A stretch of DNA of 64,000 nt from Candidatus Gastranaerophilales bacterium. Lineage in GTDB: Bacteria > Cyanobacteriota > Vampirovibrionia > Gastranaerophilales > Gastranaerophilaceae. Each line of letters starts with the position of its first letter. Positions within the stretch are counted from its first letter, which is position 1. The notes beneath the pieces are model-generated. The model did not search any database. It worked only from the letters and a program-made list of their open reading frames with translations, and was not told where the DNA came from. A program made the translations under genes and the position numbers. Shown one piece after another: positions 7,974-13,040 of the stretch. Where the stretch lies: the NCBI GenBank assembly GCA_944323695.1, contig CALUTI010000004.1:124001-188000 (forward strand), read 5' to 3'.

Positions 7974-9137
7974 ATGGATATAAAAACATTACGAGAAGAA
8001 AACAAATTAATCGATCTATTTTGCAACTTAGCACAGATCCCTTCACCGTCACTTGGAGAAGAAAATTTAATCAACTGGATTGTTGATTACTGCAAAACAA
8101 ACAATATTAACTGTGAATTGGACAGTTACAAAAACATTCACATTAATATTGAGGCAACGGATCCTAAAAAACTTCCGCTGCTATTATCCGCACATATGGA
8201 TGTTATAGGAGATGATTCAGCCGTAAAAATATATATGGAAGATGATTTGATAAAGGCTGAAGGCAGAACTCTAGGAGCTGATGATAAAGCAGGAGTTGCA
8301 AATGCTTTGTATTTTGCAACGGAACTTGCAAATAACAAAGATTACAAACACGGCGGGCTGGAAATTGTATTTACCCGCGACGAAGAATCAGGTATGACCG
8401 GCATTAGAAATGTTGATTTTTCAAAATTAAAATCAAAATATGTTCTTGTACTCGACAGTGATTCTTTAGGACAACTTTTAACATCTGGTGCAAGTTATAC
8501 AAACGTAAAACTTGAATTAAATACATTTAAAGGCGGTCATTCAGGTATAGATATCGCAGACAAAACACGCGAAAATGCCGCAAAACTTATTGCGGATTTA
8601 GTAGCTGAATTCCCGCAGGGGGTATTCTATTCAGAAGAAGGAAAAGTAATAACTTCATGCAATATAGGCGGAATTTCAGCCGGCAAGCTTGATGTAACAA
8701 ATATTATTAATACCCATGGCGAAGCGACTTATTCAATAAGAAGTTCAAGCGTTGAAAAAGAAGAAGAATTAAAAAATCTAATGAAATTTTTGGTAGATGA
8801 CTTTAATAAAGAATACGCAGGAATTGCGCAGGCTCAAATAACCTTTAAAGAACACATGCCGGCATTTGAAAAAATTGAAGATGATTATATACCTTTGTTA
8901 TTTGAGGCTGTTGCTAAAAAGGAAGGAATTACTCCTGAAATTTCATCATTCCACGCAGGTGCAGAAACCCATATTTACGCAAACCGGACAAATGCCAATG
9001 GTGAAAAATTTGCGCCGTATCTTGTAGGACTTGCAACTGTTTGCAATATGCATTCGGAAAAAGAATATGTGGATTACAAAACAATGATTGACGGTCAAAG
9101 ACTTTTAAGGGCATTTTTTGCCGCTTATAATGCTTAA
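7974..9137 (+). CDS. M20 family metallopeptidase, PepT-like
   Basis: A 387-residue cytoplasmic dizinc aminopeptidase of the peptidase T-like group. Metal and catalytic residues are visible: His and Asp in SAHMDVIGDD (near 75), bridging Asp in LGADDKAG (near 104), Glu-Glu in FTRDEESGMTG (near 135), Asp in VLDSDS (near 160), and His in SSFHAGAETH (near 330). The segment GGHSGIDIADKTRENA belongs to the dimerisation/lid domain. Such enzymes trim small peptides; the true substrate (tripeptides or another amide) cannot be told from sequence. It has its own promoter and a strong terminator. Confidence 0.9.
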   Translation: MDIKTLREENKLIDLFCNLAQIPSPSLGEENLINWIVDYCKTNNINCELDSYKNIHINIEATDPKKLPLLLSAHMDVIGDDSAVKIYMEDDLIKAEGRTLGADDKAGVANALYFATELANNKDYKHGGLEIVFTRDEESGMTGIRNVDFSKLKSKYVLVLDSDSLGQLLTSGASYTNVKLELNTFKGGHSGIDIADKTRENAAKLIADLVAEFPQGVFYSEEGKVITSCNIGGISAGKLDVTNIINTHGEATYSIRSSSVEKEEELKNLMKFLVDDFNKEYAGIAQAQITFKEHMPAFEKIEDDYIPLLFEAVAKKEGITPEISSFHAGAETHIYANRTNANGEKFAPYLVGLATVCNMHSEKEYVDYKTMIDGQRLLRAFFAAYNA

Positions 9138-9140
9138 ATT

Positions 9141-9174
9141 AAAAAATCGGCTCCAACAAAGGAGCCGATTTTTT
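9141..9174. terminator. Bidirectional terminator
   Basis: Arms AAAAAATCGGCTCC and GGAGCCGATTTTTT around AACAAA. It serves the M20 gene on the plus strand and overlaps the stop codon of the convergent paralogue gene on the minus strand. Confidence 0.9.
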
Positions 9175-9337
9175 AAGAAAATGCTTTGAATGAACGTTCC
9201 GTATTCTTTTCGATAACGCTTTTAACTGATTCGTATTCGGTTTGAAGCGCATTGTGCTCGGTATCAAGTTTTTTCAAATCATTGTCGTACTTTTTGTCTT
9301 TTGATTCTATTTCTCTTAACTTCTGATTGTATTCCGC
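9173..9337 (-). repeat. C-terminal coding inverted repeat, arm A
   Basis: About 165 bp encoding the last 54 codons of paralogue A, repeated in opposite orientation at 12876-13040 with about five, mostly synonymous, differences. Confidence 0.85.
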
Positions 9338-10981
9338 CTCAGCTTTGGCTATTGCAACTTCATCTTCTGTTTCTGATATATCAGTACAAGAACTGTAAGC
9401 TGTGGCCATCCATTGTGTTGTTGAAAGTCCGGTATCACTTTCAGCTTCGTCAACAAATTGAACTTTTTCTAAAGTTACAACACCGTGTTCTAAAGCAAAT
9501 TGCAGCCATTCACTGCTGGTTAATAAATTATCATCCAATTGTTTATAATATGTACCTTTTTCACCTTGAACCGATTTGCGATCGCTTTCGCCGTTCATAC
9601 GGTGCCAAAGATTTATATACCAAGAGGTTTTAGGATCGTCTTCGTCAGGGATTTTACTTGTCGGAAGATTTGCTATATCATCCATATATTGCTCGTATAA
9701 TTCAGTACAAGCAGCCTGCCAGCTTTGAATTTCCTGCCATTTTGTTTCCCAAGCCGCATGGTCTTCAAGATATTTATTATATTCTTCCTGGTATTTTTCG
9801 TTATATTCAGCTTCGCCTTCAGTTTCTAAATTTGCAAGTTCAGTATAAAATTGCTGCCAGGAGTTATACAAAGATGTTGATGATTGCGCTGATTCACTGC
9901 TATTAATTGTAAATGCTGAAGAATTAATACTATAATTATTTTTAGACAGATAATTGATAACATCACAATACAAATCTATTAGAGATTGCACCAGACTCTG
10001 AACGCATTCATATTCTGCGATATCCTCCTGTTTAAGTCCTGCCAACAAACCAGTTGCGGCATCTTTACCGCTGCCACCAAAACCCGTTGTTAAACTATTA
10101 TCATCTAAGGTTCCCGTCGGCGTAATACTAATAGTTCCGTCAGAATTTGTTATTTTAATTCTGTTTCCGTTTGCATCCGTACCAAAACCGTTCGGTCCCC
10201 AGATCAAATGACAAAGGTTGTGTTCAATATGCCAAACCTGCGAATTGCCGGTTGTACTTAAGACAGATGAATAACAAGCAGAACCGTTATATGCAGCAGC
10301 TAATGCAGCAAAATCAGGCATGTTAACCTTTTCCGGTTCCTTTGGTTCATCACCCGGATATGCCGGCACATTGGTCAATTCTGATATTAAACCGCCGTAG
10401 GATCCGGCTTCTTTACCTGTTACCGGTACCATGGAAACCTGTGCCGCCCATGAGTTATATTGTTGTTCACTCATACCGCTGTTTGGTTGGGCTACCCAGT
10501 TTAAAACATTCATTCCGCCAAAATTTACAAGTAATTTGTCAGCATCAATATCATAAAAGTCTCCGTAATTACCACCAAAAATTGTTTCTAATTCATATAT
10601 AAACTGCGGATTTGTTGTCAATGCCACACCATATGCCTGTACAAAATCGTTTACATTGGCACTTGACTCAAAATTCATTGCATCAGTTGAACTTACCATT
10701 AACTGACCGGAGGTGTTTGAAATCCCGTATTGATTTTTTAAATCCCCATACTGATACATTATTGCAGGTGTTAATTCCGTTTGTGTTGCATTACCCTGGG
10801 CATCATAAGTCGTATACATTAATTTCGTTGCATTTAACGCTTGAATATATTCCTGACTTGCTTCCTGAGTTTTGTCAGCAAGACGCACTTTAGAATTTGA
10901 GATCTGCTGTGAATGCAGCTCATTATCTGATAACCGTGCGGTTATACTCAATAATCTTGCTTGTGAGGCAGCCAGGCCCAT
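9173..10981 (-). CDS. Large protein with conserved ends, paralogue A of a divergent pair
   Basis: About 602 residues. The ATG at 10981 has AAAGGG upstream; an in-frame start 36 bp earlier lacks a site. Residues 1-72 (beginning MGLAASQARLLSITARLSD) and the last ~55 (AKAEAEYNQKLREIES to SFKAFS) are identical to paralogue B at 11238-13040. The middle is different, with Tyr/Glu-rich helical stretches near 390-440 and a Cys/His segment (WHIEHNLCH near 260). A further shared region precedes the C-terminus (LTSSEWLQFALEHGVVTL). No signal peptide. The C-terminal 60 residues are heptad-like coiled coil. Family not recognised; the leaderless helical ends resemble flagellar/T3SS-exported proteins only superficially. 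Confidence 0.8.
   Translation of the reverse strand: MGLAASQARLLSITARLSDNELHSQQISNSKVRLADKTQEASQEYIQALNATKLMYTTYDAQGNATQTELTPAIMYQYGDLKNQYGISNTSGQLMVSSTDAMNFESSANVNDFVQAYGVALTTNPQFIYELETIFGGNYGDFYDIDADKLLVNFGGMNVLNWVAQPNSGMSEQQYNSWAAQVSMVPVTGKEAGSYGGLISELTNVPAYPGDEPKEPEKVNMPDFAALAAAYNGSACYSSVLSTTGNSQVWHIEHNLCHLIWGPNGFGTDANGNRIKITNSDGTISITPTGTLDDNSLTTGFGGSGKDAATGLLAGLKQEDIAEYECVQSLVQSLIDLYCDVINYLSKNNYSINSSAFTINSSESAQSSTSLYNSWQQFYTELANLETEGEAEYNEKYQEEYNKYLEDHAAWETKWQEIQSWQAACTELYEQYMDDIANLPTSKIPDEDDPKTSWYINLWHRMNGESDRKSVQGEKGTYYKQLDDNLLTSSEWLQFALEHGVVTLEKVQFVDEAESDTGLSTTQWMATAYSSCTDISETEDEVAIAKAEAEYNQKLREIESKDKKYDNDLKKLDTEHNALQTEYESVKSVIEKNTERSFKAFS
10767..10966 (-). repeat. 200-bp inverted repeat, arm A
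   Basis: Codons 6 to 72 of paralogue A. On the opposite strand it matches 11253-11452 over 200 bp with a single difference (the third base of a Thr codon). The identity begins at the sixth codon and stops abruptly at the ACACC of the shared TP motif. Confidence 0.92.
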
Positions 10982-11237
10982 AGTTTTTTCCCTTTCGCAT
11001 TGATGCTTTTGATACATTTATGTTTACGTAATTTTTGTTATTTATCTTTAATATTTATATATATTTTGTTAAGAATTTGTAATAAAAAATATATGTAACG
11101 AATTGTAAAGATGTATTTAAAAAGGGCTGAAACCCGGTTATAATGCCTGTATGGTATGGTCGAAGTGTGTTTTTTGTCTAAAGTACCCCCGAAAAGTTTC
11201 CGTAATCATGAATACGCATTGATACGGAAAGGACTTT
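10982..11237. promoter_or_regulatory. Divergent promoter region between the paralogues
   Basis: AT-rich on the left side. For the plus-strand gene, TATAAT at 11139-11144 lies 17 bp after TTTAAA. In its ~90-nt leader, TTTCCGTA (11197-11204) pairs perfectly with TACGGAAA (11223-11230), which overlaps the ribosome site GGAAAGGAC, so the start could be masked. The minus-strand gene has no equivalent hairpin. The whole region lies between the 200-bp inverted repeats. Confidence 0.6.
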
Positions 11238-13040
11238 ATGGGTTTAGCAGCATCACAAGCAAGATTATTGAGTATAACCGCACGGTTATCAGATAATGAG
11301 CTGCATTCACAGCAGATCTCAAATTCTAAAGTGCGTCTTGCTGACAAAACTCAGGAAGCAAGTCAGGAATATATTCAAGCGTTAAATGCAACGAAATTAA
11401 TGTATACAACTTATGATGCCCAGGGTAATGCAACACAAACGGAATTAACACCGTCCTTTTTATATACATATACACCGCTCAAAAATCAGTATGCGCTTCA
11501 AGATGCAAGCGGAGCATATTATGTAAGCTCAATTGATGCGCAAAATTATGAAAACAGCAACACATTGTTGGAATTTTTAGAGTGCTATGATCTTTTAACA
11601 GATGAAAAATATCAAGATGCATTGGAAAAATACGAACAGGATATGGAAAAATTCCAGCAAGCCCAGACTAAATATGAGGAAGATTATAAAGAGTATGAAT
11701 CCAAGTTAAAAGATTATAATACAAAGTTAGACGCATACAATAAAGAATTAGCTGAATATGAAAAGGCATATCAGGAATATCTTGACCAATTAAATCAGCC
11801 GAACCTCTACGACAAATTTGCAGGCTTGGTTGGTACAAGCGATAATCCAAATGGCCAGGCCGGCGGATGTTATCAAGCAGCCTTAAAATGGAACAGTACA
11901 GGTTGTTATGCACATTTATTAGCGCACATGTTAGATTATAAAGGTGGAAGCAATTTTAATTATAATTATGATTACAAAACAAGCTATATTAATCCTGACA
12001 CCGGTATTAACGATACGGTTCAGATAGATAACCAAAGCGGATCTACAGGTGCGACTATGCATAGGTATGTTAAAGATGATCCTAACTGGCTTGAAATTGT
12101 TGATGCCATAAATGACCCGTCACGACTTTGCGACGGAGATGATGTTTATAACGGTACAAGTGATGGTACAAAAGATAATATTATTCAACAAGCAATTGAT
12201 GAAGGCAGAGTACCTACAAAAGCAGAAATATTACAGAGTGACTATTTGTATGATCCTGATACAAATACTGTTACAGGACTTAAAACACTTAAACAAAAAG
12301 CTATTGATTTGTTGTATATGTTAGATAATATAAACGAATATAGAGATGTTGTTGATTGGAAAGCAACCTTGATCAACTTCACAGACGGTGATATGAGAAA
12401 CTTGGGTTCAGCACCGACACCGCCGGATCCGTTTACTGCTGTAATGCCGGATATGCCGACAAAACCGGAAGAACCTCTGCATCCTGATTATTCTGTTGAA
12501 CTTAATGATCAGGAAAAAGCCCAGTGGTATGTAAATTTGTGGTATATGATGAACGGCTCTGATACGGCAAATATTGTTAAGGAAGATACATCAACCGACT
12601 TGGATGGCATATTTATAGTTGAAAGTGCTGAGAAAAGTTCCAAAGGTAATTATAAAGTTCTGGAAGATAATTTGATGACAAGTCCTGAATGGATTGAATT
12701 TGCATTGGAACATGGTATTGTTACCCTTGTGAAGGCAGAATATACAAATCCGTCTGAAGATAGCGGAAAAGCACCTGAATTAACAAGTGACGCTATTACA
12801 TGGAGTGCAACAACAGTAGGCTCATGTATAGATATATCTTCAACAGAGGATGAAGCTGCGGTAGCAAAAGCAGAAGCGGAATACAATCAGAAGTTAAGAG
12901 AAATTGAATCAAAAGACAAAAAGTACGATAATGATTTGAAAAAACTTGATACCGAGCACAATGCGCTTCAAACCGAATACGAATCAGTTAAAAGCGTTAT
13001 CGAAAAAAATACGGAACGTTCGTTCAAAGCATTCTCTTAA
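11238..13040 (+). CDS. Large protein with conserved ends, paralogue B of a divergent pair
   Basis: A 600-residue protein, start ATG after GGAAAGGAC. N-terminal 72 and C-terminal ~55 residues equal paralogue A (9173-10981). The middle differs: residues about 118-190 form a long Tyr/Lys/Glu coiled coil (KYEQDMEKFQQAQ, YNKELAEYEKAYQEYL), then a GGCYQAALKWNSTGCYAHLLAH segment whose Cys/His pattern recalls the A copy (split here to note CYAHLLAH), then Asp/Asn-rich sequence. The shared NLMTSPEWIEFALEHGIVTL block lies near 475. No signal peptide or membrane span. Function unknown; a structural, secreted or surface-filament role is possible but unproven. Confidence 0.8.
   Translation: MGLAASQARLLSITARLSDNELHSQQISNSKVRLADKTQEASQEYIQALNATKLMYTTYDAQGNATQTELTPSFLYTYTPLKNQYALQDASGAYYVSSIDAQNYENSNTLLEFLECYDLLTDEKYQDALEKYEQDMEKFQQAQTKYEEDYKEYESKLKDYNTKLDAYNKELAEYEKAYQEYLDQLNQPNLYDKFAGLVGTSDNPNGQAGGCYQAALKWNSTGCYAHLLAHMLDYKGGSNFNYNYDYKTSYINPDTGINDTVQIDNQSGSTGATMHRYVKDDPNWLEIVDAINDPSRLCDGDDVYNGTSDGTKDNIIQQAIDEGRVPTKAEILQSDYLYDPDTNTVTGLKTLKQKAIDLLYMLDNINEYRDVVDWKATLINFTDGDMRNLGSAPTPPDPFTAVMPDMPTKPEEPLHPDYSVELNDQEKAQWYVNLWYMMNGSDTANIVKEDTSTDLDGIFIVESAEKSSKGNYKVLEDNLMTSPEWIEFALEHGIVTLVKAEYTNPSEDSGKAPELTSDAITWSATTVGSCIDISSTEDEAAVAKAEAEYNQKLREIESKDKKYDNDLKKLDTEHNALQTEYESVKSVIEKNTERSFKAFS
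11253..11452 (+). repeat. 200-bp inverted repeat, arm B
   Basis: Codons 6 to 72 of paralogue B, the partner of 10767-10966. The only difference is at 11408. Codons 1-5 are synonymous but differ at four positions between the copies. Confidence 0.92.
12876..13040 (+). repeat. C-terminal coding inverted repeat, arm B
   Basis: Partner of 9173-9337, about 97 percent identical in reverse orientation; it ends at the stop codon. Confidence 0.85.

Follow-up and report, generated by a model that had tools for sequence, protein, structure and literature searches.

Nested inverted repeats and sigma28-type promoters in a divergent paralogue pair of a Gastranaerophilales genome, with gene ends probably kept alike by recombination

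A pair of neighbouring, head-to-head (divergent) paralogues, here named gene A and gene B, was identified in the metagenome-assembled genome (MAG) of a Candidatus Gastranaerophilales bacterium (GCA_944323695.1; 1.73 Mb, 97.8% complete), labelled G000. The window analyzed is the stretch of 64,000 nucleotides (nt) at positions 124,001-188,000 on the forward strand of contig CALUTI010000004.1, and all coordinates are given within it (Table 1). The relatives compared were 16 genomes of the genus, the named ones being mostly Candidatus Gastranaerophilales MAGs, and a wider sample of 383 genomes in the family that was searched at a stricter cut-off. For gene A, the start at 10981 was preferred over an in-frame upstream ATG at 11017. 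The pair is flanked in G000 and its relative G005 by an M20 peptidase gene on one side and a lytic transglycosylase gene on the other, and the flanking genes with a Pfam match were housekeeping genes.

The first 72 codons of both genes form the inner arms of an inverted repeat, separated by 254 nt and 97% complementary in a repeat search. Reading outward from the ATG, five differences in codons 2-5 are followed by 155 base pairs (bp) of identity, one mismatch, and a further 44 bp of identity; all of the codon 2-5 differences are synonymous and MGLAA starts both proteins. Likeness of the inner arms by chance is excluded, and no third copy at comparable identity was found in the 1.73-Mb genome, where the next match was 70% over 135 bp. 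As the two genes are also alike at their 3' ends (241 nt at 88% ungapped; 219 nt at 92% by BLAST), the repeats are nested. An initial annotation of the locus had described a single difference in approximately 200 bp over codons 6-72, arms in opposite orientation on divergent paralogues, purely synonymous differences in codons 1-5, and strongly conserved DNA there in contrast to unrelated middles; each of these descriptions was borne out by the arm layout, the repeat search, and the approximately 30% identity of the A and B middles, while the outer repeat was absent from it and is added here.

Table 1. Features of the paralogue pair and its spacer, in window coordinates.
Feature	Coordinates	Strand	Remarks
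Gene A	9173..10981	-	MGLAASQARLL family, 602 amino acids; helices 2-50 (N-terminal) and 541-601 (C-terminal) flank a variable middle
Gene B	11238..13040	+	600-amino-acid paralogue; shares the ends of gene A; middle unrelated, at 30% identity
Inner arm, 5' end of the gene A coding sequence	10767..10982	-	216 nt, 97%; identical runs of 155 bp and 44 bp
Inner arm, 5' end of the gene B coding sequence	11237..11452	+	216 nt, 97%; identical runs of 155 bp and 44 bp
Outer arm, 3' end of the gene A coding sequence	9173..9413	-	Repeat search and BLAST
Outer arm, 3' end of the gene B coding sequence	12800..13040	+	Repeat search and BLAST
Unique spacer between inner arms	10983..11236	.	Both leaders inside; 10967-11252 when bounded by the identical cores
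Sigma28-like promoter of gene A, 'AT' leader	11024..11050	-	TAAAG-N15-TACGTAA; looser pattern only, not the strict one
Sigma28-like promoter of gene B	11179..11205	+	TAAAG-N15-TCCGTAA; strict pattern
Sigma70-type promoter in 'HP' leader	11116..11144	+	TTTAAA-N17-TATAAT, with GGGCTGAAACCC in its spacer; same element in relatives
Two TATGG pentanucleotide repeats at expected transcript start	11150..11159	+	Copy number and unit differ among species
Inverted repeat TTTCCGTA/TACGGAAA adjoining ribosome site	11197..11230	+	Hairpin predicted, with no clear gain over shuffles

The N-terminal 72 residues retrieved 11 genes in G000, each opening with MG(L/M)AA(S/G)QAR, and family relatives were present in all 16 genus genomes searched and in 131 of the 383 family genomes at the stricter cut-off. 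Members share a layout of long helices at the N- and C-terminus flanking a variable middle, with helices predicted at residues 2-50 and 541-601 of A and 2-50 and 536-599 of B around a mixed middle, in models of modest confidence (mean predicted local distance difference test, pLDDT, of 73 and 63). Searches of genes A and B against Pfam and NCBIfam gave no family above cut-off, a PDB sequence search using the gene A alignment gave no match, and Foldseek against the PDB with the gene A model gave nothing at E < 0.001, the best hit (E 0.45) being unused as evidence.

Two different leaders lie in the spacer. A sigma28-type site alone was recognised in the AT leader of gene A, and the HP leader of gene B combines a sigma28-type site with a near-consensus sigma70 promoter and the pentanucleotide repeats. 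The strict sigma28-type pattern, TAAA(G/C)-(N14-16)-(C/T)CG(A/T), was located upstream of nine of the 11 family genes, whereas 1000 dinucleotide-shuffle sets gave on average 0.15 such genes and never more than 2. It agrees with the known sigma28/FliA consensus of the TAAA-N15/16-CCGATAA type. A FliA gene scoring above the curated cut-off is present in G000, such that both hallmarks of a sigma28 (FliA) regulon, the promoter motif upstream and the gene for the sigma factor, were found.

The genome further encodes FlhA (722 bits), directly preceded on G000:C12 by FliE-, FliF-, FliG-, and FliH-like genes named by reading (L101, L102), with one family member approximately 10 kb from FlhA. No match to the flagellin N domain (PF00669) was found anywhere in G000 at E up to 1, so that the flagellar-type export operon is present although a flagellin gene could not be detected. 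The presence of FliA and FlhA together with the lack of a detectable flagellin suggests that the family members are probably substrates of the flagellar-type (type III) export system. Many Gastranaerophilales have incomplete flagellar gene sets and their motility is disputed (PMC4040986; PMC5877343).

Inverted pairs were identified in four species of the genus (G000, G005, G007, and G011) with inner/outer repeats of 216/219 nt in G000, 207/347 in G011, 390/495 in G005, and 335/482 in G007. The four spacers are homologous. The pair occupies the same chromosomal site in G000 and G005, while those of G007 and G011 lie at other sites, and their flanking genes are therefore uninformative on a flip. 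A pair is apparently present in G003 as well, where contigs G003:C2 and G003:C93 both begin at codon 31 of the family N-terminal segment, as expected of an assembler unable to pass identical inverted arms. The outer repeat of G011 continues for 100 bp past both stop codons at full identity (L060:4256-4355 and 8227-8326), which places the whole G011 pair within a larger palindrome.

The ends of the paired genes evolve in concert. Differences per 213 nt between the two N-terminal arms (N-arms) of a genome, compared with those to the nearest other genome, were 6 vs. 29 in G000, 12 vs. 47 in G005, and 2 vs. 52 in G007, and the C-terminal arms (C-arms) differed at 25, 16, 7, and 2 positions within the four pairs vs. 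at least 37 to any other genome. Likeness within a genome hence exceeded likeness between genomes for the C-arms in all four pairs and for the N-arms in three of four. The few N-arm differences inside G000, G005, and G007 are all synonymous, whereas from genome to genome those codons vary widely at their synonymous sites; as these sites are free between genomes yet alike within them, protein constraint alone cannot explain the likeness of the N-arms.

The middles sort into an A class, a B class, and others. Codons 116-410 of gene B differ between G000 and G011 (11238-13040 vs. L060:6428-8230) at 17 of 885 nt (1.9%; 98.1% identical), compared to 30 of 216 nt in codons 1-72 and 119 of 570 nt in codons 411-600 (14-21%) and to 13-20% divergence in two other regions of these genomes. 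The B middle was thus recently exchanged between species, with the exchange ending inside the gene. G010 and G014 are approximately 98% alike around the locus, yet have B and A middles, respectively, at the same site. These closely related species (L059/L069) also differ in the orientation of a 6-kb MutS2-peptidase block, which is inverted in G010 up to a point beside the gene.

Leaders and middles have likewise recombined. At the G000/G005 site, a single gene combines the AT leader with an A-class middle in G006, G008, G014, and G015, with a B-class middle in G010, and with another middle in G002, while G012 has the HP leader with a B-class middle. Across the genomes, the leader before an A-class middle is AT in eight and HP in G007, and that before a B-class middle is HP in G000, G011, and G012 and AT in G010. 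These combinations show reassortment of leaders and middles from species to species. Strong support for the recent gene conversion or recombination suggested in the initial annotation came from the homogenised N-arms (three of four pairs) and C-arms (four of four) and from the reassorted leaders and middles, and on these comparisons recombination at the repeats is well supported.

The explanation that we consider likely is a sigma28-controlled paralogue pair encoding probable export substrates, whose ends are kept alike by recombination that reassorts leader, middle, and ends. The genes would have a flagellin-like build of conserved terminal helices around a variable middle. Homologous recombination between copies A and B, as gene conversion with or without crossover, would keep their 5' and 3' ends alike, and recombination with other strains or species would replace the middles, such that over evolution the leader, the middle, and the ends may behave as three modules that are reassorted, including across species. 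A crossover between the inner arms would be expected to flip the spacer occasionally and one between the outer arms to flip the whole pair; after inversion of the spacer, A would have the sigma70-plus-sigma28 leader and B the sigma28-only one, with both genes keeping a promoter.

Several points weigh against this explanation. The N-arms of G011 are not homogenised (40 of 213 differences within the genome), which indicates that exchange is not constant. The comparison is built on MAGs, in which near-identical repeats are prone to collapse or misjoining. Neither Pfam, NCBIfam, nor the fold search gave a significant match that assigns the family, and we infer both the export of its proteins and the RecA-type nature of the recombination.

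The initial annotation had proposed a possible inversion switch, in which homologous exchange between the arms would flip the approximately 286-bp segment holding both promoters. As a true switch, crossover at the 200-bp arms would flip the 254-286-bp spacer so frequently that a population holds both orientations, and genes A and B would trade the sigma70-plus-sigma28 and sigma28-only leaders as in phase variation. We regard such a switch as unlikely, although the repeat geometry on which it was based is real and allows inversion: both leaders lie in the spacer, homologous recombination could act on arms of this length, the arms are homogenised in three of four pairs, and codons 2-5 travel with the leader in G000 and G011. 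The comparison of related genomes for flipped promoters that had been suggested gave three concordant pairs and one discordant pair. The HP leader before the A-class middle of G007, compared to the AT leader in all other genomes, fits one flip, but the G007 arms are identical over 310 bp, across which a short-read assembler could place the spacer either way, leaving its assembled orientation uncertain. The same caution applies to G000 with its 155-bp identical run, while G005 and G011, with shorter identical runs, agree with G000: the orientation is the same at the site shared by G000 and G005, and the leader-middle linkage is the same in G011. Switching is further disfavoured since both leaders carry a sigma28-type promoter, so that either orientation leaves one on each gene and inversion would swap leaders or change the type of control, silencing neither gene. 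No serine or tyrosine recombinase was found on this contig or among the neighbouring genes checked, the recombinases of the genome being located elsewhere, and G010 shows that leader and middle can be exchanged without an inverted pair.

A recent inverted duplication alone, by which each lineage would have a young pair with undiverged ends and middles replaced later, is considered very improbable. It would account for arms nearly identical within a genome and for the G011 repeats, whose extension approximately 100 bp past the stop codons is what such a duplication would produce. However, it is disfavoured by the homologous spacers of G000, G011, G005, and G007, which make the pair older than these species; the site is common to G000 and G005, yet their N-arms differ at approximately 50 of 213 nt, so that the pair there is likely old while the arms look young, and both ends but not the middle would need to have been duplicated. 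Still less probable is an assembly artefact, in which two diverged 5' ends collapsed to one consensus or the spacer was joined in arbitrary orientation: the 155-bp identical run exceeds common k-mer sizes and both G003 contigs break in the arm, but collapse leaves the shared, leader-linked codon 2-5 difference unexplained, similar pairs with more diverged arms occur in independent assemblies (G011 and G005), and no N runs lie within 3 kb of the locus. The assembly doubt concerns the orientation of the repeats and not their existence.

Among known systems, the preferred explanation, a pair with ends kept alike by recombination, would work most like the exchange of Campylobacter fetus sap genes and the recombination of flagellin middles, by analogy. 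Switching in sap reportedly involves conserved 5' ends and a promoter-bearing invertible segment, as described by Dworkin and Blaser. As in sap, the genes are divergent homologues in opposite orientation that agree in their conserved 5' coding ends and are otherwise dissimilar, and exchange in conserved sequence there puts the promoter before another gene. In contrast to sap, with one promoter, one gene expressed at a time, and a bank of silent homologues, both genes here are preceded by a sigma28-type promoter of their own, only 254-286 bp of spacer separate the arms, no silent bank is at the site, and switching is no more than a possibility. Exchange of sap (surface layer) homologues is frequent in C. 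fetus, with only the homologue next to the promoter transcribed (PMC3887049), and 'sap inversion', including without RecA, is cited in PMC5634654. Flagellins share the conserved N- and C-terminal helices, the sigma28-type promoter, and a variable middle exchanged between species (PMC7018530), while the present family differs in having no sequence match to flagellin, no flagellin gene found in the genome, a size of approximately 11 members in each genome, and an arrangement in inverted pairs whose ends are homogenised. Recombinase-driven invertible promoters, such as the invertons of gut Bacteroidales and Mycoplasma Vpma/Xer1, also place a promoter between inverted repeats but use short sites and a dedicated recombinase, unlike the approximately 200-bp coding arms here with no recombinase nearby.

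A more far-reaching possibility, which we hold to be doubtful, is that gut Gastranaerophilales have an export system under sigma28 control and lacking flagellin, whose exported proteins are varied through homologous recombination at the conserved gene ends, and that head-to-head pairs flip their short spacer, so that two variants trade a sigma28-only and a sigma70-plus-sigma28 leader within a population. If true, a cyanobacterial lineage that is non-photosynthetic and common in animal guts would have a variation system linked to its flagellar-type export apparatus, itself without detectable flagellin, and no such system was described in the literature searched. A sigma28 regulon of variable export substrates would offer a testable use for the apparatus retained in Gastranaerophilales of disputed motility. 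The homogenised ends also carry a warning that assemblies of such loci can have arbitrary orientations.

The HP leader was additionally considered for a hairpin masking the ribosome-binding site, as proposed in the initial annotation. This proposal proved weak, with a fold in the gene B leader of z = -1.05 that 26 of 200 shuffles equalled, and none of the five HP leaders tested folded clearly better than shuffles. The 5' half of the hairpin is the -10 element of the sigma28-like promoter, and transcripts from that site would therefore not contain the hairpin. The same leader displays a promoter class composed of TGTAA-type direct repeats, then GGGCTGAAACCC-TATAATGC, and then pentanucleotide repeats, approximately 2-5 in number, where transcription probably starts (11116-11159; L103-L124 in relatives). 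The pentanucleotide unit is TATGG, TATGT, TATGA, TAGGA, or TAGGC with a constant 5-bp period, and the class was identified in 9 of the 16 genus genomes, with 11 occurrences in G012, before family members, a flagellar operon, other genes, and apparent short non-coding transcripts with terminators.

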